IMG/VR virus record: IMGVR_UViG_3300005253_000054
Location: 1 to 64,000 of that record
Source of the DNA: a virus
Strand: one strand, 5' to 3'
Length of the DNA: 64,000 nucleotides
A program made the position numbers and the translations under genes. Positions 94-20,210 of the stretch are shown piece after piece (the first letter of the stretch is position 1; each line of letters begins with the position of its first letter). Below the pieces are notes generated by a model. It did no database searches. It was not told the DNA's origin and was given only the letters and a program-made list of their open reading frames with translations.

Positions 94-107
94 TAGGAGT
101 CTAAATA

Positions 108-4466: not shown

Positions 4467-5374
4467 GTACAAACACGGACCCGTCCACCTGGCGATTGAG
4501 AACGGCCAGTGGGATCAGATACAAATTGATGGAAGGATTCCCCACTGGCACATTCGAGGATGAGAATGCTACTGCTGAAGAGCAGTATATAATACAAGCA
4601 CCCAATCTGTTTGCTTTTGTATTGGAATCGTTCCCCCCACCGATCGTGATTGGCAACTTTTTTATTAACCTACCGAAAAGATCTTTTCCATCATTGGTTT
4701 CTCTTCAGACCAAACGAATATCTTATCAACCATTCGAGGATGGAAGACCGTCTGATCCATTTGGTATTGATCTGGGGGCACCTGATGGCACGTATGCTGA
4801 TTTCTTATTGGTAACAATCAGTTACGCCACGGGTAAGAATAGTGGGGATGATAATAACCCAACTACCTTTTTGGAGATATCATCTAGTGCCACGGGTGAG
4901 ATTATTACAATACCTACAACTGGTAACAACTTTGGTTCACCCACTGGCGATCCAGTCCAAGATGGTGTTGTTCCAGTATCACAAGTTATACCTGAAACAG
5001 AATGGACTGTTAGATGGTCACAAATCCCTAATACTTTCTTTGATGTATTGCTTAATGTGATGCGACCTTTGATGGGGCGAGTAAGCAGTGTTCCAATGCC
5101 ATTGCTTAGAAATGCCGATGCATCTACTATTTTATTCATGGGATGGTCACACGAAGAACAGTTTACGTGGAAAAAGAATTTTGTGGATGCACCTCCTATC
5201 CAAGTGGAGATGCATTTCGTAGAGAAGAATCTTAATATCGACGGGTTTACCATAGGACACAATCACTTCTACAATCCAAAGACTGGGGCTTGGGAACAAT
5301 TATTCAATGCCAAAGGTGAATTGGTTTATCGTTCGGGTAATCTTAATAAAATGTTTCCGCCTTCGGTTGGGTAG
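4463..5374 (+). CDS. Tail-associated protein downstream of tape measure
   Basis: 303 aa, overlapping the tape measure stop by ATGA, so the two are probably translationally coupled. It is a soluble, beta-rich protein with many aromatic residues and no signal peptide. Genes in this position usually encode the distal tail protein or baseplate hub of siphoviruses, but no motif was recognised and that role is inferred only from order. Confidence 0.5.
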   Translation: MSTNTDPSTWRLRTASGIRYKLMEGFPTGTFEDENATAEEQYIIQAPNLFAFVLESFPPPIVIGNFFINLPKRSFPSLVSLQTKRISYQPFEDGRPSDPFGIDLGAPDGTYADFLLVTISYATGKNSGDDNNPTTFLEISSSATGEIITIPTTGNNFGSPTGDPVQDGVVPVSQVIPETEWTVRWSQIPNTFFDVLLNVMRPLMGRVSSVPMPLLRNADASTILFMGWSHEEQFTWKKNFVDAPPIQVEMHFVEKNLNIDGFTIGHNHFYNPKTGAWEQLFNAKGELVYRSGNLNKMFPPSVG

Positions 5375-5379
5375 TTATT

Positions 5380-6573
5380 ATGGCCCGTGAAACCTTCCCC
5401 AGAAAAAAACCTGGTGATAGCTTAGAGGCTTCCCATGTCAATAAGCTATCACGAGTAGCAAGGCGTCTTTCCAATTTCCCGATAGGTTCCCATCAGATAG
5501 GCAAGCAAGGTGGAACATTTTCTGGTTCCGGTCCATACCCTCATTGGACGCAAGCCCCCGTTGAGATCACAAATAAGAAGATCGACTCAGACGATTCCGA
5601 AAACAGTGGATTATATTTATGCAAGATACGTTATTTTGATGGAGAAGAGTGGCAATTACAAGATCAGGAATATCAATTAGATGCTAATTCCATTAAAGAA
5701 AAATACGAAGTAGAGGATATTGTCACAGCCTATTTTTCACGTCAACGTGGGTTGTGGTTACCAATCACTTTTGTAGCCGGGATTCAATCATTCATAGAAG
5801 TAGAGGGAGTCACGACCACAACAATCGAGAAAGAAACGGGCGAAGATAGTTATGAGGTAGAATTTTGGTTAGAGCGTTCCTCTGGTGGACCATTCACCAT
5901 AGTTGGTGGTCGTACTTTCTTTATCAATGCTTACCATGAATCGGAGGATATTTCTGTAACTGGTGTGGGTTTCATTACATTCTTAGCACAACACAATGAG
6001 GTATTCCGATTGGTGGTAAGAGTATCAGAAGTATTGGAGGATGTTTCGAGTGTTTTGGGAGTAATGAAGTTTACGTCATTAGATAAGGATGGTATAACCA
6101 CCTCGGATACTTCGGCACCAGATGCAACCGTTGTAGGACGTCTAAGAGCCGTTGCTGAGGTAAATAATAACGATGGGGAATTGCGTTGGCCTAAGTACGA
6201 AATTCAGAATACATTGGAAGGTGTTAGGATACAAACACCCAAAGAGGAGACTTGGACAATAGAGGCGGACGTTTTGATTACGGCTGTGATCCAACCATCC
6301 TCGGCAAGTTCGGCCAGCACATCCTCGATTAGTACGTCGAGCCAAAGTGATGAGGTTAGCAGTGTTAGCAGTATCAGTACGTCATCCCCATCGTCACAAT
6401 CAATGTCTTCAATATCCACTAGTTCTAGCAGTGGAAGTAGTACTTCAACATCGTCCCAATCACCATCGTCCCAATCTTCGTTGTCATCACAATCCAGTAC
6501 ATCAAGCCAATCAAGTATTTCTACTAGTTCTAGTTCAATCAGCACAAGCAGTCAAAGTGATACTGGGGCATAA
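5380..6573 (+). CDS. Tail protein with long Ser/Thr-rich C-terminal tail
   Basis: 397 aa. Residues about 1-305 form a charged, beta-rich globular region. Residues about 306-397 are an irregular low-complexity tail almost wholly of Ser, Thr and Gln (repeats such as SSQSSISTSSSS). It starts five bases after the upstream gene and directly precedes the glycan-modification genes. The tail is not coding noise: Ser is spelled with both TCN and AGY codons, so selection appears to act on the protein rather than on a DNA repeat. It may be a receptor-binding or fibre protein and a substrate for O-glycosylation by the genes that follow. A second Ser-rich C-terminus ends at position 93. Confidence 0.6.
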   Translation: MARETFPRKKPGDSLEASHVNKLSRVARRLSNFPIGSHQIGKQGGTFSGSGPYPHWTQAPVEITNKKIDSDDSENSGLYLCKIRYFDGEEWQLQDQEYQLDANSIKEKYEVEDIVTAYFSRQRGLWLPITFVAGIQSFIEVEGVTTTTIEKETGEDSYEVEFWLERSSGGPFTIVGGRTFFINAYHESEDISVTGVGFITFLAQHNEVFRLVVRVSEVLEDVSSVLGVMKFTSLDKDGITTSDTSAPDATVVGRLRAVAEVNNNDGELRWPKYEIQNTLEGVRIQTPKEETWTIEADVLITAVIQPSSASSASTSSISTSSQSDEVSSVSSISTSSPSSQSMSSISTSSSSGSSTSTSSQSPSSQSSLSSQSSTSSQSSISTSSSSISTSSQSDTGA

Positions 6574-6595
6574 TCGTTTTTAGTGGAGACCCGAA

Positions 6596-7591
6596 ATGTC
6601 GTGTGTGTATCTTCGGAAAAGGGATGGCAAATCTGACCTATGTAATCTGTACGATGCGAAAGCAAAGTGCAAAAAATGCGAAGATATTCTTACGTTAGAT
6701 GATCCAGACCTATCATCCAAATTCAAAGACCCCCTAATTCTTACAGATCAAGACAGAAACAAGATAACCTGTTTTAGAAATCTGTTAGCTGGTCGCCCCT
6801 CATTCCTTGTTTGTGGTGGCCCGTCCGCGAATCAATTCCCCTTGGAAGTGCTAAACAACAGGGGTTGTTGGTCTATCGCTGTCAATAACATGGGAGGGCA
6901 TTCTCGTTTTCGTCCCAATGCCTTTACGTGTTCTGACCCTCCCAAAAAATTCCATAATGGGATATGGCTTGACCCCGGTATAATGAAGATCATTCCCATT
7001 CCCAAAACGAAAAGGAACCGTGGCAAACTCCGCGAGAAGCTCCCTAACGGGTCATTCCAGGACTTGCGGGATGACAAGGGGGAGATTATGTCATCTTGCG
7101 ATTGCCCGAACGTATGGGGCTATGGGAGGCGTTCCTGGATGGCTCTGGATGAGACGTTCTTTACTGACATAGATGCTGCTTGGGGCAACCATAATGTGGG
7201 AGTGAAGAAAACGGGCCAGCCCAAATGCGTCTGTACGATGCTGCTTGCAATGAGGATTCTTTACTATTTGGGATCGAGGCGAATCTTTCTGGTTGGTGTT
7301 GACTTTAACATGGATTCGTCAAGAGATTTGCTTGCCAATTATGCTTTCGGTGAAGAGCGGGATGATGGGGCTTGTCGATCAAACAACAGTCATTATGACA
7401 TAGTTAATAAGCAGTTATGTGAGATGCAAGAGGGAGGGATTTTCAAGAGATTCGGATTAGAGATATTCAATTGCTTTTCTAATTCAGGATTAAGGGCGTT
7501 TCCCTACGTCTCTTTTGAGGATGCCATAGGATGTGCTACAATGGGAATTCCAAGTGGGCCTTTTGATTTGCGTAACTGGTATAAGTCGTGA
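6596..7591 (+). CDS. DUF115/MptE-like Rossmann protein, probable glycan enzyme
   Basis: 331 aa. The N-terminus has a Cys cluster (LCNLYDAKAKCKKCE). A Rossmann-type start follows at about residue 75 (FLVCGGPSANQFPLEVLNN) with IAVNNM, and later IFLVGVDFNMD. The pattern GGPS...L...N...N and a late GVDF strand are typical of DUF115/MAF-type and sialyltransferase-like proteins acting on nucleotide-activated sugars. The Cys cluster could bind zinc. It opens the modification gene run. Confidence 0.5.
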   Translation: MSCVYLRKRDGKSDLCNLYDAKAKCKKCEDILTLDDPDLSSKFKDPLILTDQDRNKITCFRNLLAGRPSFLVCGGPSANQFPLEVLNNRGCWSIAVNNMGGHSRFRPNAFTCSDPPKKFHNGIWLDPGIMKIIPIPKTKRNRGKLREKLPNGSFQDLRDDKGEIMSSCDCPNVWGYGRRSWMALDETFFTDIDAAWGNHNVGVKKTGQPKCVCTMLLAMRILYYLGSRRIFLVGVDFNMDSSRDLLANYAFGEERDDGACRSNNSHYDIVNKQLCEMQEGGIFKRFGLEIFNCFSNSGLRAFPYVSFEDAIGCATMGIPSGPFDLRNWYKS

Positions 7592-7600
7592 GGTAACAAA

Positions 7601-8371
7601 ATGAGCATAACTTTCGTTAGGGTTTTGTATGGCGATGGTACTGGTTGGCCTAGACCGAAAGATGATCCCACTGGAGAGCACATGCGGGCTAGGAGTGTTC
7701 GTTTACTGAATCAAGATATTGATAGATCGTTTCAGAATGACCGCGATAACTTCTTCCGAGACAAAATCCATTATGTGACGATGGGAGAATGGGCTACTGA
7801 CAAATTACGAACACACAAGGTTAAGAACATCCACCAAGTAAATAAACATCCTTGGTGTCAGCCCAAAGGATATATACACTTCTGGCATAAGCTTTACTTA
7901 GTACGTGAGGCTTTGCGTTTATTTGGTGACGTAGTGTGTACCGATTTCGATTGTGTACCTACTGACGGTTTCGATGCTCGTTTTGGTGAGGCTGTAGATT
8001 CTATGGAGGGTAAAATCTTTCAAGCACCCTTGACCATATACCATCGACGTGCTTTTGCGTGGAGAGAATCAAGTGGGGAAGGCTGGAGTAAGGTCAGTAA
8101 GCACATTGGATTGTGTGGTAGCTTTATGTTGTTTCGGAATGTAGGAATGGTTAATGAATTTTTCGAGGATTGGGAAGAGTTGAATAAACTGTTACCCAAC
8201 AATACGATGGCAAGCGACCAAGCGATTACGTATAGTTTGGAAAAGAGACGGAGGATAAAAACTGTTAGAGAGACTTACGAAGAATGCGAGCCCGAAGCCA
8301 TTATCATACCGCGTAGTCCAATCCACGATTTGGGAATCACGAAAGACTCTGCTATATTCAGCCATAGGTAA
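7601..8371 (+). CDS. Glycosyltransferase-like protein (GT-A, DxD)
   Basis: 256 aa. CTDFDCVP at about residues 110-117 looks like the metal-binding DxD of GT-A glycosyltransferases, with a preceding FWHKLYLVREAL helix and a downstream Gly-Ser strand (GLCGSFMLFRN), a common arrangement in phage and capsule glycosyltransferases. The likely role is transfer of a sugar from a nucleotide donor. GAGGT precedes ATG 7601. Substrate unknown. Confidence 0.55.
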   Translation: MSITFVRVLYGDGTGWPRPKDDPTGEHMRARSVRLLNQDIDRSFQNDRDNFFRDKIHYVTMGEWATDKLRTHKVKNIHQVNKHPWCQPKGYIHFWHKLYLVREALRLFGDVVCTDFDCVPTDGFDARFGEAVDSMEGKIFQAPLTIYHRRAFAWRESSGEGWSKVSKHIGLCGSFMLFRNVGMVNEFFEDWEELNKLLPNNTMASDQAITYSLEKRRRIKTVRETYEECEPEAIIIPRSPIHDLGITKDSAIFSHR

Positions 8372-8376
8372 GATCC

Positions 8377-8787
8377 ATGTTACCAACATTCTCGATACCG
8401 CCCATCGGTCCCAAACAGGGGAAAATATGGGGAGCAACTCAGTTGCTATTTGCTTACAATTCTGTGGAGTGTCATCTTATAGGGATAAGCAAGAGCGGTT
8501 TTTGTTCTAAACATACTCACGAATACAAGTGGAATCGTTTCGTAGTAGTTAGAGGTTCTTTAACTATCGAATCTTACCTCAATCCGGATTCTCCAGACGA
8601 AACCGTACTGATGCCTGGACAGATAACGGATATTCCTCCAGGGGTTCCCCATCGTTTCAAAGCTTCTACTGAGGATTGCATAGCCTTGGAGTTTTATTGG
8701 GTGGTATTGGAACCATTGGACATAGACAGAGGTGGAACCGTGGGAGGTGTGAAAGATGATCCATCGGATAAGAAAGGTGGTGAGTAA
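8377..8787 (+). CDS. Cupin-fold protein
   Basis: 136 aa. Cupin motif 1 is HTHEYKWNRFVVVRGSLTIE with His ligands; motif 2 is PPGVPHRF. This resembles the cupin part of type II mannose-6-phosphate isomerases and sugar epimerase-like proteins. It could be a sugar isomerase, epimerase or binding protein in the glycan pathway. The stop overlaps the next start by one base. Confidence 0.65.
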   Translation: MLPTFSIPPIGPKQGKIWGATQLLFAYNSVECHLIGISKSGFCSKHTHEYKWNRFVVVRGSLTIESYLNPDSPDETVLMPGQITDIPPGVPHRFKASTEDCIALEFYWVVLEPLDIDRGGTVGGVKDDPSDKKGGE

Positions 8788-9035
8788 TGGGTCAGATGCA
8801 AACGTATGAAGTAGTTTATGTTGAGGGATTAGAAGCTGAGGTAAAACGATTGCGGAAGTTGTTTAGAGAAGTCCGCCAAGATTTTTTTGAGCAAGCAGAG
8901 GAAGAAATAAGGGAATATGCAGACAAGGGTAAAAGTTGGGTGGAAATTGAGGATATGCCGAAACGGAAAAAGTATTTTGATGCAGAGACAGAAAAACTTT
9001 GCAAAGGTGAAGACGATGAACCATCGAACGAATAA
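8787..9035 (+). CDS. Small charged coiled-coil protein
   Basis: 82 aa with repeated Glu/Lys/Arg over residues about 10-60, predicted to be helical. Not recognised. It lies between the cupin and a methyltransferase and overlaps the latter's start by about 20 bases. Confidence 0.5.
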   Translation: MGQMQTYEVVYVEGLEAEVKRLRKLFREVRQDFFEQAEEEIREYADKGKSWVEIEDMPKRKKYFDAETEKLCKGEDDEPSNE

Positions 9036-9522
9036 ACTGATTAAGGTTCTGAACGATTACAAGATCAATCCTAAGATGGGTGCCGAGGTAGGCGTACAGT
9101 TTGGTAAGAATGCCTATGGAATGTTAAAGACTTTTCCTGATTTGCATTTGCTATTAGTTGATAGTTACGATCCGACTACGTTTTTCCATGATAGGCATAC
9201 GGCAGAAAATGCCCGGAATATGGCATTGGTTAGGTTGTTTAACTTTACCGATAGGACACAGTGGTTTGTAAAAACCAGTGTGGAAGCAGCAACAGAGATT
9301 CCAGACTATTCTCTCGACTACGCATTCATCGATGCAGGGCATGGTTACGACGACGTAAGAGCCGACATAGCAGCATGGTCTCCCAAGATACGTCATGGGG
9401 GCATACTTGCGGGACACGACTATACAAGACGTTTTAGAGGGGTTGTGAAGGCAGTCAATGAAGCCTTCGGTGGAAAGCACGAACGCAAAGGAGATCTATG
9501 GTGGATACAGATGGGAAAGTGA
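9016..9522 (+). CDS. Class I SAM-dependent methyltransferase (Methyltransf_24-like)
   Basis: 168 aa from ATG 9016, chosen because AGGTGAAG lies just upstream; the frame is open further back without a better site. Motif I is GAEVGVQFGKNAYGM, followed by LLVDSYDP, then DYAFIDAGHGYDDVRADI and GGILAGHDY. This is the pattern of short sugar or peptide O-methyltransferases found beside glycosyltransferases. The acceptor is unknown. It overlaps both neighbours. Confidence 0.7.
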   Translation: MNHRTNKLIKVLNDYKINPKMGAEVGVQFGKNAYGMLKTFPDLHLLLVDSYDPTTFFHDRHTAENARNMALVRLFNFTDRTQWFVKTSVEAATEIPDYSLDYAFIDAGHGYDDVRADIAAWSPKIRHGGILAGHDYTRRFRGVVKAVNEAFGGKHERKGDLWWIQMGK

Positions 9523-10313
9523 TTCCTGATTTTACGATTGTTTTAGGTGTTGATCGCAAACATTTGTTTCAATTAGAACATACATTTCCTACGTGGAAAC
9601 GGCATAAACCATCCATGTTAGAACGTCCGATGATTGTGTTCTATGACCATGAGCAACTCGATCCATCAGACGTAAGGAAAGTAATTGACCATCACGATAT
9701 GATTATGATTCCCTGGCCACTTGCTGGAGTAGAGTATGAGGGAGGTAACGACAAATTCACGAATGCAAGACGGTATCGTATGTTGTCTGGATTCGTGCAT
9801 GTTCCGGCAAAGGTAGTGAAGACCCTTTGGTGGCTCAAGATCGACACGGATGCAATTGCCCACGGTATGGATGATTGGATTGATTCTAGTTGGTGGGCTG
9901 ATGATCCTATAATAATCTCACCGGGTTGGCCCTACACCAAGCCACCGAATCAGATGGTATTACTTGATGAATGGGTAGAACGGGAGAAAGACAAGCTGAT
10001 TGATTTTTATGAACGAACAGAGCCTTTGGATATGTTTCCCAAACCCGGAAGTGATCGACTTCCTCACAAACGGATTGGTACTTGGTGTGCCTTTTTCAAG
10101 ACTTCATTTACACAATATGCTTCTATGCTTGCTGAACAGACTTGTGGTCTTGGCAAGCTACCAGTACCATCGCAAGATAGTTACTTGTGGTATCTTGCGA
10201 CTCGTATGGGTCGTGGTATTCGTAGGGAGAACATGAAGAAACGAGGATGGGTATTGTTTGCTACAATGCCTAATATCAAACGATCAGCAGCGGAGGCTAT
10301 GGCAAATGGCTAA
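9498..10313 (+). CDS. Putative glycosyltransferase
   Basis: 271 aa. It begins with a beta strand (DFTIVLGVDRKHLFQLE) typical of GT-A folds; WLKIDTDAIA at about residue 114 provides a DxD-like pair. It overlaps the methyltransferase end by 25 bases and the next gene by 8. No family was assigned. It may act with the neighbouring methyltransferases on one glycan. Confidence 0.45.
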   Translation: MVDTDGKVIPDFTIVLGVDRKHLFQLEHTFPTWKRHKPSMLERPMIVFYDHEQLDPSDVRKVIDHHDMIMIPWPLAGVEYEGGNDKFTNARRYRMLSGFVHVPAKVVKTLWWLKIDTDAIAHGMDDWIDSSWWADDPIIISPGWPYTKPPNQMVLLDEWVEREKDKLIDFYERTEPLDMFPKPGSDRLPHKRIGTWCAFFKTSFTQYASMLAEQTCGLGKLPVPSQDSYLWYLATRMGRGIRRENMKKRGWVLFATMPNIKRSAAEAMANG

Positions 10314-10923
10314 CAGTGGACAAGATTTTATAAAAGCTGTCAAACCATTGCGATGGTCACCCGATGCTATTTATCAGGTAGGTGTGGGAAAACATTACCC
10401 AGAAGTAAAAGCATTCCAAAAGGAATGGCCAGAGGTTCCGATAACTGGTTGTGAACCCCATCCTTCTATTTACAGACGATTGACAGAAAAGTACCCTGGG
10501 AAAATCTACAATATAGCGATGGGTGAAGAGGATGGTTCGGTCGATCTTTACCATCGTAAGAAACACAAGGATGGTAGCTCAGTTTTCCAACGGAAGTATG
10601 ATCCGAATAGACCATTGGTAAAGCATCGTGTTACATGCGGTACTCTTGACACATTCTTTTGCGATAAGATTGCCAATGCCCTGTTATGGTTGGATTGCGA
10701 GGGTAGTGAATTACGGGTATTGCGGGGTGGTAAGAGATTCCTGAAGGGGGTTTCGGTTATCAATGTGGAAATGATTTCCGAGCCACCTTGTGATGGGTGG
10801 TGTTCTGCTAAGGATGTAAACAATGAATTGATAGGTAATGGATTTGTGTTACATTCGTCCCACACCCATCGAGATAATCACAATCAGTATGATGCCATTT
10901 ACGTAAGGAGTGGGATGGTATGA
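10306..10923 (+). CDS. FkbM-family methyltransferase
   Basis: 205 aa from ATG 10306, which has GGAGG at 10292-10296; the longer upstream frame overlaps the previous gene. Motifs are YQVGVGKHYPE and CEPHPSIYRRL in the SAM-binding half, and then the FkbM hallmark LLWLDCEGSELRVLRGG with INVEM. FkbM enzymes O-methylate sugars and natural products. It overlaps the next ATG by ATGA. Confidence 0.75.
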   Translation: MANSGQDFIKAVKPLRWSPDAIYQVGVGKHYPEVKAFQKEWPEVPITGCEPHPSIYRRLTEKYPGKIYNIAMGEEDGSVDLYHRKKHKDGSSVFQRKYDPNRPLVKHRVTCGTLDTFFCDKIANALLWLDCEGSELRVLRGGKRFLKGVSVINVEMISEPPCDGWCSAKDVNNELIGNGFVLHSSHTHRDNHNQYDAIYVRSGMV

Positions 10924-11795
10924 CCAAACGCAGAGTGATGTATCTGGAAACAGGACCGGCCCACTTCCATAATTTGGTTGTGTCAATGTGGTCATTACGT
11001 AAGCATTGCGACGTACCAATACTTCTATACGCTTGGCCTCAGTCGTACGAAGTGGCTAAGCAGATAGCAGAGGATGATAGATTGGGAATTGAGGAAGTAA
11101 TTGAGTGGGTTCCTGATTGGATGGGTGGAGGTACTACGGCACAGTCAGAATGCAAACAGCAAATCATTCAGACAATAGATGCGGACGTGGTGTTATACCT
11201 TGATGCTGATACGTTGGTCGTTGATAGTCTGTGGACGTTGTTTGAGGGTGCATGGCATTATGGATTTTGTGGAGCCCAATTTAACAAGTGGATTACTACT
11301 GGTAAGAAGATAAGCAAACGCATTAGAAACTTGAGACAGTTTCCAGAGATTGATAAGGATTTGATTGACCGGCTATTAGCAATTCCTTGGCCAGCTACGA
11401 ACAGTGGAATCTTTGCTTGTGATCCCAAGTCCCCTGTAATTCCCAAATGGTATGAATATACAGTAGCAGCACGGAAATCTTTTATTCCAGACGAGAATTG
11501 TCTGTATCTTATGATGCCCTTATTCAAACCATTTGGGAATATGGCTGTGTTGGAAGGTGGGGCATGGAATAGTTCGACGCATTATCAAGACCCTGATTTG
11601 AAAGATGAAGACGTTGTTATCTGGCACTTCCACGGAGATAGCAACACACGTCCTAAGAAGTCTCCCAAGGGTGTAGAATTATGGTGGCCAGCCTATCAAG
11701 AGTGTGTGAAAGAGAACGTAGGAAACATACAATCGTGGAGAGAATCGGTTAGGAACAAACACTTAGATCGGCTGCTAAGAAAGAGATCACTATGA
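10920..11795 (+). CDS. GT8-like glycosyltransferase, paralog 1
   Basis: 291 aa. VLYLDADTLVVDSL at about residue 97 is the GT-A metal-binding DxD; TNSGIFACDP and VIWHFHGD follow, as in GT8-type sugar transferases. It is paralogous to the next gene, sharing the VVS.(W/L)SLRKH start, YLDADT, RL..FPEID and WHFHGD. It is a soluble enzyme expected to use a UDP-sugar. Confidence 0.65.
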   Translation: MTKRRVMYLETGPAHFHNLVVSMWSLRKHCDVPILLYAWPQSYEVAKQIAEDDRLGIEEVIEWVPDWMGGGTTAQSECKQQIIQTIDADVVLYLDADTLVVDSLWTLFEGAWHYGFCGAQFNKWITTGKKISKRIRNLRQFPEIDKDLIDRLLAIPWPATNSGIFACDPKSPVIPKWYEYTVAARKSFIPDENCLYLMMPLFKPFGNMAVLEGGAWNSSTHYQDPDLKDEDVVIWHFHGDSNTRPKKSPKGVELWWPAYQECVKENVGNIQSWRESVRNKHLDRLLRKRSL

Positions 11796-12688
11796 AACGA
11801 CAAATCGTTTATCTAATGAGCAAGCCTGCACATCTTCCATATTTGGTGGTAAGTCTTGAATCATTACGAAAGCATTGGGATGGGAAAATAAAGGTTTATG
11901 CTTGGGCAGAATCCTATGATCTTGTAAAGAGGATTGCTGAAGATGAGCGATTGGGTATCAAAGCAAGCCTATTCGACCCATGCCACAAAGGACGCAATGC
12001 CCAATTTGAGTGCAAGCAACGGGTTATGCAATGGACTGATTGTGATGCGGGATTATACCTTGATGCTGATACGATGATTTGGAGCAGTCTCGATTTGTTA
12101 TTTGAAAGGGCGGAACGGTTTGGGTTTGCCGCCACCCAATACTGTGATCGTTACACTGATTGGCTTATCATACGAAATAGAATCAAGAGATTAAGGACGT
12201 TCCCTGAAATAGATAATGAGTTGATAGAGAAGTTACTGACAAACAGATGGCCTACTGTAAATGGTGGTGTGTTCGCGTGTAAACCGTCGTCCCCAGTTCT
12301 ACCCTTGTGGCACAAATGGACAAAGGCAGCTAGGGAGATTTACATTGCGGATGAGGTTGTTCTGCACACTATGATGGTCAAGTTTGGTTTGTCGATGGAA
12401 ATGACAGTGGTAATGGAACAGGGCAAATACAATTGTTCTACTATGACTTACCTACATCCTCAAGGGTTGCGGGACGATCATGTACACGTTTGGCATTTCC
12501 ACGGTGATAAGTGTGTAAAGATAAACGATAAGAGGCCACACGAAGGCCATTGGTCGCCCAAAGGAATTGGGCTGTGGTGGCCTGCTTTCTGTAGTGCTGT
12601 GAATCGAAACGTAGGTGGAATGCAGGAATGGTGGAAGGATGTTGATAACAAACATTTAATGAATCTTTACGATAGGGTAACAATATGA
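11792..12688 (+). CDS. GT8-like glycosyltransferase, paralog 2
   Basis: 298 aa, overlapping the previous gene by ATGA. It shares its architecture: GLYLDADTMIW near residue 88, NGGVFACKPSSPVLP, and VHVWHFHGDKC near the end. This is a tandem duplication with clear divergence, so the two may transfer different sugars or act at successive steps. Confidence 0.65.
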   Translation: MKRQIVYLMSKPAHLPYLVVSLESLRKHWDGKIKVYAWAESYDLVKRIAEDERLGIKASLFDPCHKGRNAQFECKQRVMQWTDCDAGLYLDADTMIWSSLDLLFERAERFGFAATQYCDRYTDWLIIRNRIKRLRTFPEIDNELIEKLLTNRWPTVNGGVFACKPSSPVLPLWHKWTKAAREIYIADEVVLHTMMVKFGLSMEMTVVMEQGKYNCSTMTYLHPQGLRDDHVHVWHFHGDKCVKINDKRPHEGHWSPKGIGLWWPAFCSAVNRNVGGMQEWWKDVDNKHLMNLYDRVTI

Positions 12689-13311
12689 AGAATTTTGACA
12701 TTGATATGTCAGAGCATGATTTTAAGTTCAAGCGGAAGTGGTTTAAGAATCGCAATTTGCAAACATTTGTTGAATACATTTACCTCAAGTGGGCAGGTAA
12801 ACCCATTTTGTATTTGGAAATAGGTGTGTTTGAGGGAATGAGTTTAACGTGGATGTTTCAGCACATTTTAACCCATCCTGAATCTAGGGCTGTAGGAATC
12901 GACCCTTGGCTACCAATGCCTCCCAAATGGAATATGGAGCAGATAATAGGGATAAGAGAACATGCCTTACACAACTTGAGTATGAGGGATCGTCTTGAAT
13001 TGATTCATGCTAACAGTGTTACGATCCTTGATGTAATGTTAAGGAAAAAAGGCTATGCTGGAGTTAGTCGGGGCTCATTAGATTTGTGTATGGTGGATGG
13101 TGACCATCACGCTTTGGGTATGTTGGCCGATGCCAAAATGTGTTTGCCTTTGATGAGGAAAGGTGGTTGGTTATTGTTCGATGATGTGGAATTATCAATG
13201 CCGAGGAAAGACCAAGTCAAAGAAGGATTACGGATGTTTGTAGAACAACACGGGAATGAAGTAAAGAGGGTTTTCAAGCATAAACACATGGAAGCTTACG
13301 AGGTATTGTGA
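12685..13311 (+). CDS. SAM-dependent methyltransferase (Methyltransf_24-like)
   Basis: 208 aa. ILYLEIGVFEGMSLTWMF is motif I; VGIDPW gives the acidic ribose-binding position; LDLCMVDGDHHALGMLADA and GGWLLFDDVE complete the pattern seen in cephalosporin hydroxylase/Methyltransf_24 proteins. It overlaps both neighbours by four bases. Confidence 0.65.
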   Translation: MKNFDIDMSEHDFKFKRKWFKNRNLQTFVEYIYLKWAGKPILYLEIGVFEGMSLTWMFQHILTHPESRAVGIDPWLPMPPKWNMEQIIGIREHALHNLSMRDRLELIHANSVTILDVMLRKKGYAGVSRGSLDLCMVDGDHHALGMLADAKMCLPLMRKGGWLLFDDVELSMPRKDQVKEGLRMFVEQHGNEVKRVFKHKHMEAYEVL

Positions 13312-14021
13312 TATCAGCCAGATTCCAAATCGTATTTACCTACCGTTGCAATCTGAATTGCAAATGGTGTGATAGGTTTATGGACTCTGTTCCTTGGCCT
13401 GATTCTGATATGGTAGGGGGTGATTTAGCATTTGGGTTAAGTGCCATTAAGCAGAGTGGGATTGAGATTGAGCAATGCCGTATTGGTGGTGGTGAAGCTA
13501 AGATGCACCCATGTTTTGCTAGTATGGCATACTACGTTAGGTTCATTTGGGGTAATGATAAAATCAGAACGTCAGTTTCTACTAATACTTTGATACCAAA
13601 TGACAAAAGCCTAGAAGTAATCTACCAAGAGGCTGGACCGAAAACGAAAAGTAAACACACTCCAGTAATGATTTCCCCTTACGATTTGGGCCTCGATCCG
13701 GAGCAGGGTTTTGTGAGTCCGTGTCGTATGTCCCGCGTATGTGGTAGGCTATTTGATGCCTTTGGTTTTGCTGCCTGTCCTTACGAGGGGCCTATGGGTA
13801 GGTTATTTGGTATTGATCCTTACCAAGCAGAGCCCGTGATGTTGGGACGATATGATTTGTGTTGTCATTGCGTCCATTCATTACCTACAAAAAAGAAGAA
13901 AGCAGTATGGCAGGATGCTTTGGATGGTAAGATAGAATTCCCAACCAAGTCTTATCGAGAAGCATTAGATAGGTTTGCAGAACATCCCACCGTGTTCAAA
14001 CGATTCCAAGAGAGATTGTAA
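13308..14021 (+). CDS. Radical SAM protein with C-terminal Cys cluster
   Basis: 237 aa, GTG start overlapping the upstream TGA. CNLNCKWC at about residues 15-22 is the CxxxCxxC 4Fe-4S site of radical SAM enzymes; RIGGGEAKMHP fits the downstream GGE motif. Further Cys residues in the C-terminal half (CRMSRVCG, CPYEG, CCHCVHS) suggest an auxiliary SPASM/twitch-like cluster. Such enzymes do demanding radical chemistry on peptides or sugars. The protein is short for a full TIM barrel, and its substrate is unknown. Confidence 0.7.
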   Translation: MISARFQIVFTYRCNLNCKWCDRFMDSVPWPDSDMVGGDLAFGLSAIKQSGIEIEQCRIGGGEAKMHPCFASMAYYVRFIWGNDKIRTSVSTNTLIPNDKSLEVIYQEAGPKTKSKHTPVMISPYDLGLDPEQGFVSPCRMSRVCGRLFDAFGFAACPYEGPMGRLFGIDPYQAEPVMLGRYDLCCHCVHSLPTKKKKAVWQDALDGKIEFPTKSYREALDRFAEHPTVFKRFQERL

Positions 14022-14023
14022 CG

Positions 14024-14602
14024 ATGAGACAATGCACGGCTAATGGTGGTTTTCCAAGACGTCACGCGAAGAAAAGAGGGGATGCCTTCAGTGATAAGAT
14101 AGCACAGATTATCGAAATGGTAATCCCAAAAGATAAATTAGTTGTCGATTTTGGTGCAGGTGCTTATGGTACGTATGTTCGATGGATGTTGGATAATGGG
14201 TGGGAAAACGTGGCGGGTGTTGATGGATCGTGGGGGGTTGAAAAGTTAAGTAAGGGTCTTGTAAAGTTTGGTGATTTGTCGTTATGTCTAACTGTTGGTG
14301 AGGGTAGAATGATTCCTGTTATTCCAGACTGGATTATCAGCATCGAAGTAGGAGAGCATATACCACCAGAGAAAGCCGATGTATTTATGGACAATCTTTC
14401 GGTAGCTAAAGAAGGGATTCTAATGAGTTGGGCTTTGCCAGGGCAAAAGGGATTCCATCACGTCAATTGCCGGATGATTGAATGGGTTGCTTGTGAGATG
14501 GGTAAACGCGGATTCTCTGTTGATGACGTTGCAACGATGGAAGCTAGAACTTTTCGCAGGCATGTATTACGTAAGAGATTATTAGTTCTGAAAAGGGATT
14601 GA
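14024..14602 (+). CDS. SAM-dependent methyltransferase
   Basis: 192 aa. VVDFGAGAYGTYVRWMLDNG is motif I, with VAGVDGS next and WIISIEVGEHIPPEKADVF resembling the motif IV region of Methyltransf_11/23 enzymes. N- and C-termini are basic. It starts two bases after the radical SAM gene, so a coupled role is possible. Confidence 0.65.
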   Translation: MRQCTANGGFPRRHAKKRGDAFSDKIAQIIEMVIPKDKLVVDFGAGAYGTYVRWMLDNGWENVAGVDGSWGVEKLSKGLVKFGDLSLCLTVGEGRMIPVIPDWIISIEVGEHIPPEKADVFMDNLSVAKEGILMSWALPGQKGFHHVNCRMIEWVACEMGKRGFSVDDVATMEARTFRRHVLRKRLLVLKRD

Positions 14603-14606
14603 ATCA

Positions 14607-15164
14607 ATGATCCATTACCCAACGTTCCAATTTGCCAGCCCTCCACGGACAGCCACGACTTGGTTTTGTCAGGCTGCCCACATAGCCGGATTGGGTTGGG
14701 GTGATAAGGCCCATGCCCACATACCACCTCCAGAAAACTTTGGTGGTGTCAACGTTTGCTTGGTGAGACATCCTTACGATTGGCTTGTGAGTTATTACTA
14801 TGCTTTGCTAGGTGGGGCCATTGGTGTGGATTGTGTAGATGTGTTTGTCCCTATGGCGAGGGAGTCTAAAGACCTCAAGCAGTTCGTTAGAAGATACACA
14901 ATAGAATATCCCGGAGCTATTTGGGATATGCACCGAGCATACCAAGCCTCGATTGTGTATAGAGTGGAAGACTTGCCTTGGAATGTGATCGGATTTTTTG
15001 AGTCATTAGGTGTGAAGAAACATCTGTTAAAGAAACTGGAAACGGCCGGGCCTACGAATGTCTGCCAAAACATACCATATGCAGACTTCCCAAAATTGAA
15101 GAAAAGAGTTTGCGAAGTAGAGAAAGAATTTTGTGAGAGGTATGACTATGACTATTGGAACTAA
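14607..15164 (+). CDS. Sulfotransferase-like protein
   Basis: 185 aa. SPPRTATTWFCQAAH at about residues 11-25 resembles the 5'-phosphosulfate binding loop of PAPS sulfotransferases (RxGTT pattern), and CLVRHPYDWLVSYYY at about 51-65 matches the 3'-phosphate binding segment (RxPxxxxxSxY). It is shorter than most family members. It would put sulfate on a sugar or protein hydroxyl using host PAPS. Its place between methyltransferase and KdsB supports a glycan substrate. Confidence 0.65.
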   Translation: MIHYPTFQFASPPRTATTWFCQAAHIAGLGWGDKAHAHIPPPENFGGVNVCLVRHPYDWLVSYYYALLGGAIGVDCVDVFVPMARESKDLKQFVRRYTIEYPGAIWDMHRAYQASIVYRVEDLPWNVIGFFESLGVKKHLLKKLETAGPTNVCQNIPYADFPKLKKRVCEVEKEFCERYDYDYWN

Positions 15165-15879
15165 ATACACTGATAGCATGGTTGTGATTCCTGCCCGTTT
15201 GCAATCAAGACGGTTTCCAAGGAAACCATTACAGATGGCAGGCAACAATTCTTTGTTACAACATACCCACCATCAAGCTAGGAAATCAAGGGCATCTGTG
15301 GTATGCGTTGCCTCTGCCGATCCAGAGATTCAAGATCATTGTGGTAGGAATGGGATAGCTTGGTGGCCCACGTCACAAGCTCACATGACGGGCACCCATC
15401 GCTGTGCTGAGGTTTTAGAGTTGGTGGATGGATCAGTGGGGATTGTAATCAATTGGCAGTGTGATGAACCGTTAGTCCTACCTGAGTGGATTGACTTGAT
15501 GATCGAGAAAATCATCCAGATTGGTGCTGATATTGTAACGTTGGTAGCATCCTTATCAGCACCAGCGGCAGAAAATAAGAACGTTGCAAAGGTTGTTGTG
15601 TCAGATGATAGGTGTATGTGGTTTAGTCGATTGCCATTGTATGATAGTAAAGCTCACATAGGAATCTACGCTTTTCGATCTGAGATTCTTAGGAAACTTG
15701 GGAAAATGCAACGAACAAATCTGAGTAGGGGAGAATCGCTTGAACAATTAGCTTGGTTGGAAGCGGGATATAAAATCAGTTATATTGAGGTAGATCATTT
15801 ACCGTTAGCTATTAACACTCCACATGATTGGAAACGGTTTGCAGATAAGTTCGATCAACAGGAAATAAATAGATTGTGA
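15148..15879 (+). CDS. kdsB: CMP-Kdo synthetase (3-deoxy-manno-octulosonate cytidylyltransferase)
   Basis: 243 aa from ATG 15148, chosen for GAGAGG at 15135-15140; GTG 15133 and ATG 15142 are alternatives. VVIPARLQSRRFPRKPL is the nucleotide-binding start of KdsB-type enzymes; TGTHRCAEV, VINWQCDEPLV, FSRLPL, HIGIYAFR and ESLEQLAWLEAG follow in the expected order. The reaction is CTP + Kdo to CMP-Kdo + pyrophosphate, supplying activated Kdo or a related ulosonic acid. A dedicated phage copy implies that such a sugar is used by the neighbouring transferases. Confidence 0.8.
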   Translation: MTIGTKYTDSMVVIPARLQSRRFPRKPLQMAGNNSLLQHTHHQARKSRASVVCVASADPEIQDHCGRNGIAWWPTSQAHMTGTHRCAEVLELVDGSVGIVINWQCDEPLVLPEWIDLMIEKIIQIGADIVTLVASLSAPAAENKNVAKVVVSDDRCMWFSRLPLYDSKAHIGIYAFRSEILRKLGKMQRTNLSRGESLEQLAWLEAGYKISYIEVDHLPLAINTPHDWKRFADKFDQQEINRL

Positions 15880-16556
15880 AGACCCTAACAATCGTGGTCC
15901 ATTGCTGGCATTATGAGCATATGTTGGCCTATCAATTGTCGTCATTGGTAAAACACCCACCTAAAAAGATTCAAGTGGGTATACTGGTTCTTACTGAGAA
16001 AAGAGACACTGAGACAAAAAATCTAGTGGATGGTTTCGGTAAGATGTTTTCTGTTGATGTTAGTTGTTTAGTAACTCATGCTCCTGAGTTTTTTAATCGT
16101 GGTCTTGGTAGGAATTGGGTGGCAAAACGATTACAGCGTGACATAATTTGGTTTGCTGATGCTGATTACTGCTTTGGAAAAGGTTGTCTTGATTCATTAA
16201 CAGATATTGAATTAAAGGATGATTGGTTATATCATCCTAAACAAATCCAGCAAACGAAACATGGTAGTGGTCCAAAATATGATATACCACTAATATGTTA
16301 TGGAACTCGTCCCATAGACCCGTCAGACTTTAGAACCAAAATAATCAAACGTGCTATAGGTGGAATCCAAATCGTTACAGGAAACACGGCACGCAGCAGA
16401 GGATACCACACATACGACTACCGAGTACGTAAAGAGGCAACGGAGTGGGTACGTGGTAGGCATGAAGACGTAAGATACAGAAGACAGTTTCATAAGCTAG
16501 GACAAATCCAATCCATTGATATACCTAATTTGTTTAGGATACACAGGGACCGATGA
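15876..16556 (+). CDS. GT2/galactosyltransferase-like glycosyltransferase, paralog 1 of 3
   Basis: 226 aa, GTG start overlapping the KdsB stop. IIWFADADYCFGKGCLDSL carries the DxD motif; RAIGGIQIVTGNTARSRGY matches the GG..x..R.GY segment of the galactosyltransferase C-terminal domain. First of three tandem paralogs, probably sugar transferases acting on the phage glycan. Confidence 0.65.
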   Translation: MKTLTIVVHCWHYEHMLAYQLSSLVKHPPKKIQVGILVLTEKRDTETKNLVDGFGKMFSVDVSCLVTHAPEFFNRGLGRNWVAKRLQRDIIWFADADYCFGKGCLDSLTDIELKDDWLYHPKQIQQTKHGSGPKYDIPLICYGTRPIDPSDFRTKIIKRAIGGIQIVTGNTARSRGYHTYDYRVRKEATEWVRGRHEDVRYRRQFHKLGQIQSIDIPNLFRIHRDR

Positions 16557-17287
16557 GGAAAAAGAGACTCGATATATTCGTACATTGTTGGCAATTCTCC
16601 AAGACGTTGACGTATCTATTATCATCGTTGGTATTACACCCACCCAAAAATCTAAGGGTGAAAGTGATAGTGGCCTGTACGGAGTCAGACCAACCTACGC
16701 TGGATGTAATCCATTATTTTAGATGGCAGCATAGAGTATGGGTGTTGCCTTATCTAATGACCAAATCTCGATTGTTCAACCGTACCATTGGCAGGAATGA
16801 ACTGGCGAAAAATACAAAGGCTAATCTCGTTTGGTTTACTGATGCTGATTACTTTTTCGGTGAGGGCTGTTTTGATTCATTGGGTGAAAAGATTGAACAC
16901 TTCAAGCCTAACAATATATATTTTCCACATCACATCTTACAGAATAGAACGAAAGAGCAGGGGGATGATTACGTTCGCAAGGTATCTGATTTAGGAGTGT
17001 ATGATATAAAAACCTCTGATTTCGTTGCTAAGTCTATGCAAAGAGCTATAGGTGGAATCCAAATCGTAACAGGCAATACAGCAAGGAAACATGGTTACTG
17101 TGAAACCAAACCAGAATTCTTACGCCCCGTACGTTCGAGGAAATGGAATACCCGGATGTTTTGTGCTGATGTATGGTATCGAGCTTTGGTCGTAGGGAAG
17201 TTGTATTCCAGAGGTTATAGAATTACACTTCCTAATGTTTACCGTATCAGACAATCAATTCCTGGAGTAGTGGATACGTTAGAATGA
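16553..17287 (+). CDS. GT2/galactosyltransferase-like glycosyltransferase, paralog 2 of 3
   Basis: 244 aa. VWFTDADYFFGEGCFDSL and RAIGGIQIVTGNTARKHGY align directly with the previous gene, as does the N-terminal FVHCWQ start. It overlaps both neighbours by four bases. It is the closest relative of paralog 1; the third copy is more divergent. Confidence 0.65.
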   Translation: MRKKRLDIFVHCWQFSKTLTYLLSSLVLHPPKNLRVKVIVACTESDQPTLDVIHYFRWQHRVWVLPYLMTKSRLFNRTIGRNELAKNTKANLVWFTDADYFFGEGCFDSLGEKIEHFKPNNIYFPHHILQNRTKEQGDDYVRKVSDLGVYDIKTSDFVAKSMQRAIGGIQIVTGNTARKHGYCETKPEFLRPVRSRKWNTRMFCADVWYRALVVGKLYSRGYRITLPNVYRIRQSIPGVVDTLE

Positions 17288-18012
17288 AACGAATCGAAAT
17301 AGTTACTCACGTTTATGCTAAGATTTTACCTCATTATGCTCAAGCATTGACGTATCAGTTAAGTTCTCTGAATCTCTACAGATCGAAAGCAGACGTTTCG
17401 ATTATGATTTGCCTTGATATGACGGATGCCAAAGCCGTAGAGGTTTTATTATGGTTCAGTTTGCAATACTCTTTTCCGATTAAGATAAGAAACTTTCCTA
17501 TCGAACGATTAGGACGTAGGGCAATCGGTAGGAATATAGTAGCTAGGGAAACCGAGGCCGATGTGGTTTGGTTTACGGATGTGGATTATCTTTTCGGTGA
17601 GGGATGTTTGGATGCTGTAGCTGATTTCGTTTGGCCTGAGAAATCTGGTTTGGCCTTTCCCCATTATGTACAAATGAGTCACGACCATGAATTAGGAGAT
17701 TCAATTCTATCCGAAGCAGTATATCCCCAACTTGTTGACGTCGATCCTAAAGACTTCTATCCCCATGAGGTTACACAACCTCCGGGTGGTTGTTTTATCA
17801 TCAAGGGGGATTTCGCGAGAGAACACGGTTACCTACCTGGCCATAAGAAATACCAATCGCCGACAGACGGAGTTTTCCTATCGTGCAAATGCGATGTGCC
17901 TTACCGATCCTATTGCAAGCGGAATGGGGATGGTGCAAAGGTAATTGAGATTCCGAACGTGTTTAGAATTAGACATACGAAAACGGCCCATAAACATGGA
18001 GCACAGATGTAA
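17284..18012 (+). CDS. GT2/galactosyltransferase-like glycosyltransferase, paralog 3 of 3
   Basis: 242 aa. VWFTDVDYLFGEGCLDAV keeps the metal-binding acids (DxD as DVD); PPGGCFIIKGDFAREHGY replaces the GGIQIVTGN segment of the other two. Last gene of the modification run; its stop overlaps the next ATG. Confidence 0.6.
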   Translation: MKRIEIVTHVYAKILPHYAQALTYQLSSLNLYRSKADVSIMICLDMTDAKAVEVLLWFSLQYSFPIKIRNFPIERLGRRAIGRNIVARETEADVVWFTDVDYLFGEGCLDAVADFVWPEKSGLAFPHYVQMSHDHELGDSILSEAVYPQLVDVDPKDFYPHEVTQPPGGCFIIKGDFAREHGYLPGHKKYQSPTDGVFLSCKCDVPYRSYCKRNGDGAKVIEIPNVFRIRHTKTAHKHGAQM

Positions 18013-18290
18013 TGTTAGGATGGTTTAAGAGATTGTTAAGATGTTGGTTGTTGGTAGAAAGTCGTCCGTCGATGATTTTGGAAGTGGTGCTTGGTGGTGA
18101 TATTCAGAAAGTTGTAGTAAGTAAGGTTGTAGGTAATCGAATCCTTTGCACAATTCCAGGCAAGGGAGAATCGGCTTGTCATCTGATTGGAATTGGGCAG
18201 GCTGTAGATAAGAAGCATTTTCAAGAGTTGTTAAAGACTTTGGGCGGTGATGAATGGTTCTGGCCTGATGGTTCCGTGGCCAATCTCTAA
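18012..18290 (+). CDS. Hypothetical protein
   Basis: 92 aa. A basic, hydrophobic N-terminus (MLGWFKRLLRCWLL) could be a membrane anchor or amphipathic helix; the rest is a small soluble domain. Not recognised. It is the last gene before the promoter-bearing gap. Confidence 0.5.
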   Translation: MLGWFKRLLRCWLLVESRPSMILEVVLGGDIQKVVVSKVVGNRILCTIPGKGESACHLIGIGQAVDKKHFQELLKTLGGDEWFWPDGSVANL

Positions 18291-18474
18291 CGCTCTCTGT
18301 AGCGTGAACACCCCTCGCTTGGGTATCCTGTTTCTACATTACAGGGGTAGAAAGTGGGCCGATTCTGTCTCTTCTGGAAAAGTTTTTCGTGACCGCAAAC
18401 CCCGTAAAACACGGCATTTACGGCATTTTAACACTCTTTCCGGGCTCAGAGGGAAAAACTTTCTGGATTCGGTA
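18291..18474 (+). other. Gene-free gap with several inverted repeats
   Basis: No gene is seen. The gap holds ACGCT/AGCGT and CCTGT/ACAGG stem-loops right after the last glycan gene, which may end transcription. Next come CCGTAAA/TTTACGG and an imperfect inverted repeat GGAAAAGTTTTTC with GAAAAACTTTCTGG at about 18376-18466, just upstream of the promoter. TTTTCGTGACCGC within it recurs at about 27245. These are candidate operator or terminator structures. Confidence 0.4.
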
Positions 18475-18503
18475 TTGACAGCTTGCCGAAAATATGGTAT
18501 ACT
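18475..18503 (+). promoter_or_regulatory. Sigma70-like promoter
   Basis: TTGACA at 18475-18480, a 17-base spacer, and TATACT at 18498-18503. It faces the GC-rich small-gene block and lies about 55 bases before its first start codon. Confidence 0.75.
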
Positions 18504-18557
18504 TAGATATAGACGAGGGGGAAACAACGGAAACCACTAACCAAGGGAGACGAGACA

Positions 18558-18731
18558 ATGACAACCAGAAACAGAATCGAATGGAGCCGCGAAGACAATC
18601 GACAATACACCATCACTTACAGCGACGGAGTCGAGGTGACAGTCGAAGCTACCCGAAGCGATGACTTGCGAGCCAAGACCCTCCGCTACTACCGAGCGAA
18701 GAAAGGTGAGGTCACTTGGGGAATCAAATAG
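18558..18731 (+). CDS. Small hypothetical protein
   Basis: 57 aa (MTTRNRIEWSRED start, TWGIK end) with AGGGAGA just upstream. Charged, probably a small beta-rich domain. First gene of the GC-rich block, directly behind the promoter, so it should be strongly expressed. Not recognised. Confidence 0.6.
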   Translation: MTTRNRIEWSREDNRQYTITYSDGVEVTVEATRSDDLRAKTLRYYRAKKGEVTWGIK

Positions 18732-18743
18732 GACACGGGAGGC

Positions 18744-18765
18744 CCGCCGGGAATCAGCCCGGCGG
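18744..18765 (+). terminator. GC-rich hairpin, possible terminator or attenuator
   Basis: CCGCCGGG, a six-base loop and CCCGGCGG form an eight-pair stem 12 bases after the stop. It is not followed by a T run, so termination may be weak or the hairpin may instead protect the upstream mRNA. Confidence 0.4.
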
Positions 18766-18769
18766 ATTT

Positions 18770-18877
18770 GGGGTGAATGGTTAGCTCGGGGATATGGTGA
18801 GTGTTGTAAAAAAGCTAGGACCACTTAGCAAATGCAATGCTGCCTCAAGCTGGATGGTTCGATTCCGTCTCACCTCA
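18770..18877 (+). other. tRNA-like element (acceptor stem and T arm, non-canonical body)
   Basis: GGGGTGA at 18770-18776 pairs fully (one G-U) with TCACCTC at 18870-18876. Just before the latter is a perfect T arm, GATGG-TTCGATT-CCGTC. At 108 nt the element is too long for a standard tRNA and the D and anticodon arms do not fold cleanly; a weak TAGCA/TGCTG arm would show TGC. It could be a degenerate tRNA, a tRNA-like regulatory RNA or chance. Confidence 0.25.
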
Positions 18878-18918
18878 CTTTATTTCAAGTATTTTGGCCA
18901 AACCCAAGGGAGAACGAA

Positions 18919-19116
18919 ATGCACAGAATCTGGTTACCAGCAGGCCGCCCCGGTATCGCGATTAACGGGACCGCCTACCAATGGGACAGCGAGAAGCAGC
19001 GGATTCTGCTCGCCGGAACCCTGGCGGTTGAATTCGAGGGCACCGGCATTCCTCTTCGCCTTCGTCATACGGACGGGTTCCGTGTCGATGACGAGGCGAG
19101 AAAGGCCGGACTGTAA
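18919..19116 (+). CDS. Small hypothetical protein
   Basis: 65 aa from ATG 18919, picked because AGGGAGAACGAA precedes it, the same leader style as its neighbours. Starts MHRIWLPAGRPG. GC-rich codon use. Not recognised. Confidence 0.55.
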   Translation: MHRIWLPAGRPGIAINGTAYQWDSEKQRILLAGTLAVEFEGTGIPLRLRHTDGFRVDDEARKAGL

Positions 19117-19191
19117 TGCCGGCCCGCCACCTAACTCGGCTTCGCAACCGAGCGGGGTGCTTTACTTTTCACTTTCCCAAGGAGCAAGACA

Positions 19192-19434
19192 ATGAGCGAG
19201 AAACGACAATGCTACTGGCTTCAGGAATTGGAACCGAGTTCCAGCCATCCCGACCGGTATCGGGTCTGCGTCGTCACCGAAGGCGAACCGGGATACCACA
19301 AGACCGGCGGCGGTGACGTCGAACCGTGGTATTGGAACCAAGCGACGTGCGATGCGAAAAACAAGAGCTTCTTTGGCCTGAGCAAAGAGGACGCGATGCG
19401 GATCGTCGGTTCGTCGATGTTCTGCGACGCATAA
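19192..19434 (+). CDS. Small hypothetical protein
   Basis: 80 aa with AAGGAGCAAGACA before ATG. Rich in Trp, Tyr and Cys; no paired CxxC. Not recognised. The 75-base gap upstream has a CTCGG/CCGAG hairpin. Confidence 0.55.
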   Translation: MSEKRQCYWLQELEPSSSHPDRYRVCVVTEGEPGYHKTGGGDVEPWYWNQATCDAKNKSFFGLSKEDAMRIVGSSMFCDA

Positions 19435-19478
19435 CCCGAAACGCCGTCCGGCACGAACTCAAACCAAGGAGAACGAAA

Positions 19479-19601
19479 ATGAGTCCGAAAGAAATCGCCA
19501 AATTATACCGAATCGCTTTGATCAGAACCAATGGAAATGTCGAACGTGCTCGCAAATTAGTTGAGGCATATCTTGCAGGTTTTCTCACATCAGAGCATTA
19601 G
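19479..19601 (+). CDS. Very small helical protein
   Basis: 40 aa (MSPKEIAKLYRIAL start) with AAGGAGAACGAAA directly upstream, which supports real translation. Predicted as two helices. Function unknown. Confidence 0.5.
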   Translation: MSPKEIAKLYRIALIRTNGNVERARKLVEAYLAGFLTSEH

Positions 19602-19657
19602 TCGCTGACCGAACACATAGCCGTTTACAATCCTCTTACAATAGGAGATCTGAGAAA

Positions 19658-20194: not shown

Positions 20195-20210
20195 AATAAG
20201 GAGAAACGCG

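Follow-up and report, generated by a model that had tools for sequence, protein, structure and literature searches.

Poly-serine tails and a linked cassette with a Maf-type enzyme suggest virion glycosylation in a lineage of tailed phages

Gram-positive serine-rich repeat glycoproteins depend on the glycosyltransferases GtfA and GtfB together with an accessory Sec system. Direct O-glycosylation of serine (Ser) or threonine (Thr) has a known recipe, a Maf enzyme combined with a cytidine monophosphate (CMP)-ulosonate pathway, and the Clostridium botulinum Maf can place either Neu5Ac or Kdo on Ser/Thr (PMC11339370). Among bacterial viruses, virion glycosylation is described in the mycobacteriophages Che8, Corndog and Myrna, where phage glycosyltransferases decorate the C-termini of capsid and tail-tube proteins (PMC12619734, PMC12363180, citing Freeman et al. 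2023). Phage virion glycosylation so far comprises few cases with simple enzyme sets. Here we describe a cassette of 17 co-directional genes (6596-18012, + strand, gaps of -26 to +22 bases) that adjoins the gene for a Ser-tailed protein (5380-6573) in a 64,000-base stretch of viral DNA (the window), bases 1-64000 of the 100,283-base contig IMGVR_UViG_3300005253_000054. We consider it likely that the Ser-rich tails of virion proteins of the phage itself are what this cassette glycosylates.

Of the 17 cassette products, eight are glycosyltransferase-like, the Maf-like enzyme among them, and four are methyltransferases; the others are a radical SAM enzyme, a cupin, a sulfotransferase-like protein, a KdsB-like protein and one small protein of no assigned role. 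Open reading frames and Pfam matches bear out the gene content given in the initial annotation, a phage cassette beside Ser-rich tail proteins: its approximately 17 genes are 17, and its six or more glycosyltransferase-like proteins are eight when the Maf-like enzyme is included. Its central proposal, that the phage glycosylates its own Ser-rich virion proteins, is still the best explanation and gains support from relatives, although the glycan itself is deduced from the enzymes.

The two Ser-rich proteins of that annotation are both real, but the genome holds four: a 425-residue jelly-roll protein (L004:16478-17755, record 98978-100255), the end of whose tail lies at window 1-93 (+); a 2095-residue protein with about 970 Ser-rich residues behind a Laminin_G_3 domain (L003:8334-14621); a 246-residue protein (L004:9964-10704); and the product of 5380-6573 (+), with 55 Ser in a 104-residue C-terminal tail. 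The proteins that bear C-terminal Ser tails are encoded in the structural gene block, from which we infer their presence in the virion. Ser accounts for 53-68% of the tail regions versus 5.9% elsewhere. Because TCN and AGY Ser codons are intermixed in the tails at about random expectation and near background proportions (AGY fraction 0.34-0.44, against 0.33 for the remaining genes), selection acts on the amino acid and not on a DNA repeat. The same codon mixing rules out DNA slippage as the source of the tails; some degenerate tandem repeats do occur in the gene for the 2095-residue protein. Two acceptor candidates are conserved: the jelly-roll protein, whose gene precedes that of the tail tube, and another, small protein encoded about 7 kb upstream. 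The 5380-6573 product, which was originally flagged, is Ser-tailed, as is its homologue in a relative (L005:539-2272), but many of its homologues have no such tail and it is thus a variable extra candidate.

Relatives of this phage were collected from IMG/VR by scans with the Maf-like, tail-tube and capsid families and with the core glycosyltransferase-like protein GT9498 of the cassette, giving about 100 contigs that were clustered at 80%. The jelly-roll domain (approximately 187 residues; model pLDDT 94.4) is encoded just 5' of the tail-tube gene; in 60 of the 62 clusters with this protein it is followed by a Ser tail of 23-346 residues, with a mean Ser content of 79% and a length that varies freely; the second small protein carries a Ser tail in nearly all lineage contigs. 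The fold search with the jelly-roll domain matched jelly rolls in general and none above Z 6.7, cement and turret proteins being only some of many, so that a decoration role for the domain is not established. All 28 contigs (26 clusters) in which a complete jelly-roll gene occurs together with a Maf-like gene encode a tail, of 23-238 residues, so that cassette-bearing relatives keep a Ser-rich protein, as had been anticipated. The single long contig (62,105 bases) lacking genes for the Maf-like enzyme, the KdsB-like enzyme and GT9498 encodes three GT2 enzymes and a GT4 enzyme in place of the cassette, and its jelly-roll protein ends in an 11-residue tail, SSSSSSSSSGA. Three more fragments, apparently of the same subgroup, have similar short tags on either protein. 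That all Maf-positive contigs are long-tailed while the lone Maf-negative long contig has a short tail supports a link between cassette and tails. Contigs ending less than about 12 kb past the tail-tube gene were not counted as Maf-negative, the Maf-like gene lying 6.5-12 kb downstream elsewhere; the contig behind L102, with 12.2 kb downstream of the tail-tube gene and no Maf-like gene, is borderline. The joint loss of tails and cassette that the initial annotation suggested looking for thus takes the form of a co-variation of acceptor and enzymes, not a clean co-loss, with one informative contig. Scanning with one protein of the short-tail relative recovered that relative alone. As a separate observation, in the subgroup L103, L136, L139 and L140 two unrelated candidate virion proteins both end in the same short tag, 8-9 Ser and then Gly-Ala, Gly-Ile or Gly-Glu.

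Gene order tells a similar story. The first relative, L005, encodes a Ser-tailed protein followed by Maf-like, cupin, GT9498, FkbM, GT8-like, methyltransferase, KdsB-like and GT2-like genes, in that order, with 38-51% identity to the window for aligned cassette genes, and the order recurs across the lineage at mostly 30-55% identity. In other members, the jelly-roll and tail-tube genes are directly followed by inserted genes for a radical SAM enzyme, FkbM, a further methyltransferase and a product lacking any Pfam match. Both the conserved order and the adjacency of modifying-enzyme genes to the jelly-roll and tail-tube genes support virion glycosylation. Among 50,697 phage records, the window DNA and the major capsid, terminase, Maf-like and 11792 proteins had no match, and hence the lineage has no cultured relative there.

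The enzyme proposed to modify Ser directly is the 331-residue product of 6596-7591 (+), a candidate CMP-sugar to Ser/Thr transferase with a predicted Maf/GT42 fold. An AlphaFold2 model built from 17 lineage members (pLDDT 89.8, pTM 0.91) has the CMP-sialic acid transferase CstII as its top Foldseek match (2.8e-4), and VIA-align places the Maf flagellin glycosyltransferase 5mu5 first (Z 13.5 over 201 residues), with MptE, a pterin kinase, second (Z 11.0) and CstII third (Z 10.5). PF01973 is matched by 7 of the 17 family members (best 6e-5); a sequence-only search of the PDB with the family was uninformative. The phage protein aligns only to residues 255-517 of the 632-residue 5mu5 and lacks the additional domains that cellular Maf carries at its N- and C-termini. 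The modeled fold and PF01973, taken with the activity of the C. botulinum enzyme on Ser/Thr, support glycosylation of the tails. The contigs behind L066 (15798-16592) and L099 (24791-25594) each carry a second, more distant Maf-like gene.

Independent support for the link comes from distant Maf homologues, which pair with Ser-rich genes in bacterial loci. The bacterial homologues of the Maf-like enzyme are mostly from Planctomycetota and Verrucomicrobiota, and the lineage is, as far as can be seen, not an actinobacteriophage group. In 51 of the 74 distant Maf loci with room downstream (7 of 28 after dereplication at 80%), a Ser-rich gene overlaps or directly follows the Maf gene, starting within 1.5 kb, against 10 such genes over the other 1058 kb; most pairs are in Phycisphaerales. 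Two Maf/Ser loci checked by PHROGs have tape measure genes upstream and therefore look like prophages with a minimal module, one prophage-like locus reading methyltransferase, Maf-like gene, small open reading frame and Ser-rich protein. If they are prophages they belong to a different lineage, since the capsid profile matched none of five bacterial genomes, among them three that have Maf/Ser pairs; the tail-tube profile likewise had zero matches in the bacterial genomes. The loci of the larger Maf relatives in Planctomycetota also hold GT9498-like genes, and in some cases KdsB-like ones, and the cassette could plausibly derive from them. Two Phycisphaerales Ser/Gly-rich proteins beside a Maf homologue (L204:11169-12296 and L261:10825-12399) have a Hint-like autoprocessing domain, for which the best Hint_2 match (1.9e-5) is below cut-off.

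The cassette enzymes also appear suited to act on proteins inside the cell. No membrane helix is predicted in any cassette product, and none has a 19-residue window with mean hydropathy above 1.67, compared with 2.28 for a PEP-CTERM protein used as control. It follows that nothing in the cassette resembles a flippase, polymerase or lipid-linked initiating enzyme, and that its soluble enzymes could modify cytoplasmic proteins ahead of particle assembly, both of which support modification of the virion. The best reading is that the Ser tails of the virion are O-glycosylated in the cytoplasm, one likely sugar being a host ulosonic acid activated with CMP. Newly made virion protein candidates (the jelly-roll, 246-residue, 5380-6573 and 2095-residue proteins) would expose their poly-Ser tails in the cytoplasm, where the KdsB-like enzyme would convert a host ulosonic acid to its CMP-sugar and the Maf-like enzyme would transfer this, or a first sugar, to Ser/Thr. 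The soluble GT8-like and GT2-like enzymes could then lengthen the glycan and the methyltransferases, joined in relatives by sulfotransferases, could cap it, leaving the particle with a hydrophilic, mucin-like coat. Such a coat might shield the particle, keep it soluble, aid adsorption or mimic the host surface.

The donor sugar is suggested by the product of 15151-15879 (+), a KdsB-like CMP-sugar synthetase (CTP_transf_3, 1e-31; profile match to 1gq9, 8e-52) that matches 13 distinct solved CMP-Kdo synthetase sequences by phmmer. Genes for DAHP/KdsA-type (Kdo) and NeuB-type (sialic acid) synthases were not found in the phage by searches whose controls were detected, and any ulosonic acid would therefore come from the host. 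Of the ulosonic acid first proposed, the KdsB-like family assignment stands and the identity of the sugar is less certain. Sulfation is likewise deduced by comparison: the sulfotransferase-like protein at 14607-15164 (+) has a pattern, PxxTxTTW...VRHPxxWLxSYY, and no sulfotransferase Pfam match was obtained for any of the 17 members of its family, while the relative L005 encodes three proteins with Pfam sulfotransferase matches. The sulfated glycan of the initial annotation is accordingly weak for this window and better founded for relatives.

Several findings weigh against glycosylation of the tails. The virion location of the Ser-tailed proteins is read from gene position and fold, and the system as a whole is known from genes. 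The PF01973 fold is common to MptE (Z 11), and in most of the 15 KdsB-like members Asn replaces the conserved Asp of the KdsB motif VDTPED; related nucleotidyltransferases, GlmU among them, use Asn to bind the metal. The one long contig that lacks a Maf-like gene nonetheless keeps 9-Ser tags and other glycosyltransferases. Cassette homologues are also found in bacterial glycan clusters, and Maf-like, GT9498, GT8-like and KdsB-like homologues co-occur in loci of Planctomycetota, Verrucomicrobiota and Bacteroidales, as would be expected if the cassette remodeled a host surface polysaccharide or glycoprotein, blocking superinfection or other phages, with the Ser tails as unrelated linkers. Such remodeling, however, would account neither for the tails nor for the co-variation of their length with the cassette. 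It also fits poorly with the missing membrane-bound steps, with the late-gene position of the cassette directly behind the tail genes and with the pairing of the Maf homologue with a Ser-rich gene in prophage-like loci, and we regard it as unlikely.

The tails, extreme in composition and freely variable in length, could instead be unmodified disordered linkers or repulsive brushes, their modification being deduced from genes, with the cassette directed at other targets such as DNA or small molecules. Both linkage results, in the lineage and in the bacterial loci, and the predicted protein O-glycosyltransferase-type fold of the Maf-like enzyme speak against this, making it quite improbable. We give very little credence to a further option, in which enzymes from outside the cassette phosphorylate the tails or modify them in some other way, and only some of them, such as that of the 5380-6573 product, are glycosylated by the cassette. 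Ser-rich repeats are general phosphorylation targets, and the 5380 and 6596 genes do adjoin; against this, no kinase gene was found by Pfam in the cassette, the rest of the genome not having been scanned for kinases. Glycosylation of the virion tails by the cassette remains our preferred reading.

The other cassette genes, all on the + strand, begin with a glycosyltransferase-like protein with a DxD-type motif, VCTDFDC (7601-8371), assigned from its sequence and lacking a relevant Pfam match, a cupin (8377-8787; Cupin_2, 1.3e-5), the small protein (8787-9035; open reading frame call) and a Methyltransf_24 methyltransferase (9010-9522; 1.7e-14). GT9498 (9498-10313), with an invariant DxD and 43-52% identity across the lineage, also has no relevant Pfam match and is followed by an FkbM methyltransferase (10306-10923; 2e-11) and two GT8-like paralogues of 48% identity (10920-11795 and 11792-12688), in whose family 10 of 19 members match GT8. 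A second Methyltransf_24 enzyme (12685-13311; 2.1e-16), the radical SAM enzyme (13308-14021) and a methyltransferase-like protein (14024-14602) complete this part. The initial assignment of four methyltransferases, a cupin, a radical SAM enzyme and a CMP-Kdo synthetase holds by Pfam, the 14024 match being weak (Methyltransf_23, 0.005) and the radical SAM match (4.8e-6) slightly below the curated cut-off. The latter has a 56% identical counterpart in the structural region (L003:16476-17222), and in relatives, genes like that counterpart separate the tail-tube gene from the tail gene that follows it. The cassette closes with three GT2-like glycosyltransferases, two with weak matches (15876-16556, 6e-6; 16553-17287, 0.0055) and a third, conserved near the cassette end (17284-18012), that aligns with the other GT2-like proteins and has invariant D99 and D101.

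A 121-base identical repeat at the contig ends (window 1-121, L004:17663-17783) joins the record ends, so the genome is probably complete at approximately 100.16 kb. By PHROGs, the structural block runs from terminase (L003:6303) through portal and capsid (L004:13093) across the record ends to the tail genes at the window start. Directly 3' of the jelly-roll gene lies the probable tail-tube gene (108-533, +), assigned by position; its product is 48-77% identical across the lineage and has no PHROGs match. The tape measure gene (2160-4466, +; phrog_1533, 4.8e-48) and a tail gene conserved by synteny (4463-5374, +) follow. Just downstream of the cassette, the guanine-cytosine content rises from about 43% to 48-58% (18000-23000), a stretch that includes a DUF5131 gene (20872-21933). 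A phage gene at 41056-41598 encodes a PEP-CTERM protein with a signal peptide, whose outer domain is nearly repeated within the Ser-tailed jelly-roll protein. Farther on, a helicase gene (45671-49042) has two intein-like insertions (Intein_splicing, 8e-11; LAGLIDADG_3, 8e-6), the second overlapped in another frame of the same strand by a 272-residue endonuclease-like open reading frame (47271-48089; DUF559, 3e-13). A clamp-loader gene (50574-52421) is interrupted by an intein-like insertion within which an HNH endonuclease (HNH_3, 5e-6) lies on the opposite strand (50773-51480, -). An adenylosuccinate synthetase-like gene, which might serve in base modification, is found at L004:1907-3019 (1.2e-36).

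Virion glycosylation itself is already known, and what would be added is a Ser-tail mucin-like coat of a kind probably undescribed in bacterial viruses; within limited open-access coverage, the literature gave no account of either the lineage or cassettes for Ser tails. Only tentatively do we put forward the full picture of a tailed-phage lineage, probably of Planctomycetota or Verrucomicrobiota, in which poly-Ser tails of several virion proteins bear methylated and sometimes sulfated glycans and a Maf-type enzyme puts a CMP-ulosonate directly on Ser, the first Maf-type virion glycosylation. If true, bacterial viruses can build mucin-like coats from poly-Ser acceptors, a Maf-type enzyme, and methyl and sulfate capping. 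The poly-Ser tail with the 6596 and 15151 products is a testable acceptor-enzyme pair, the Phycisphaerales prophage-like loci suggest a minimal version of the system, and compact soluble enzymes are on offer for O-glycosylation of Ser tags.

Compared with known systems, the locus resembles each in part. It shares with the Maf flagellin glycosyltransferases the central PF01973/GT42-like fold of 5mu5, the CMP-ulosonate pathway and Ser/Thr acceptors being features of those systems (PMC11339370), but its enzyme is single-domain and linked to Ser-rich virion protein candidates instead of flagellin, and the phage genome lacks a ulosonate synthase. The KdsB-like protein has the CTP_transf_3 family and the motifs IPARxxSxRLPxKPL and QxDEP in common with CMP-Kdo synthetase, from which most phage-lineage members differ by the Asn in VDTPED and by the absence of Kdo pathway genes from the phage. 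Unlike an O-antigen or capsule operon, the cassette does not encode a membrane flippase, polymerase or initiating transferase. As with Gram-positive serine-rich repeat glycoproteins, a poly-Ser repeat acceptor comes with its own glycosyltransferase cluster; here, however, the acceptor candidates are structural and not cell-wall proteins, and no Glycos_transf_1 Pfam match indicative of a GtfA/GtfB-type GT4 pair is present in the cassette. Like the mycobacteriophages Che8, Corndog and Myrna, this phage has phage-encoded glycosyltransferases beside virion genes. One or a few glycosyltransferases are named for those phages, whereas this phage, judged from its genes, has 17 genes with a Maf-type enzyme, a CMP-sugar synthetase and methyltransferases, with sulfotransferases in relatives, and its lineage, unlike those mycobacteriophages, provides the acceptor candidates with dedicated poly-Ser tails.

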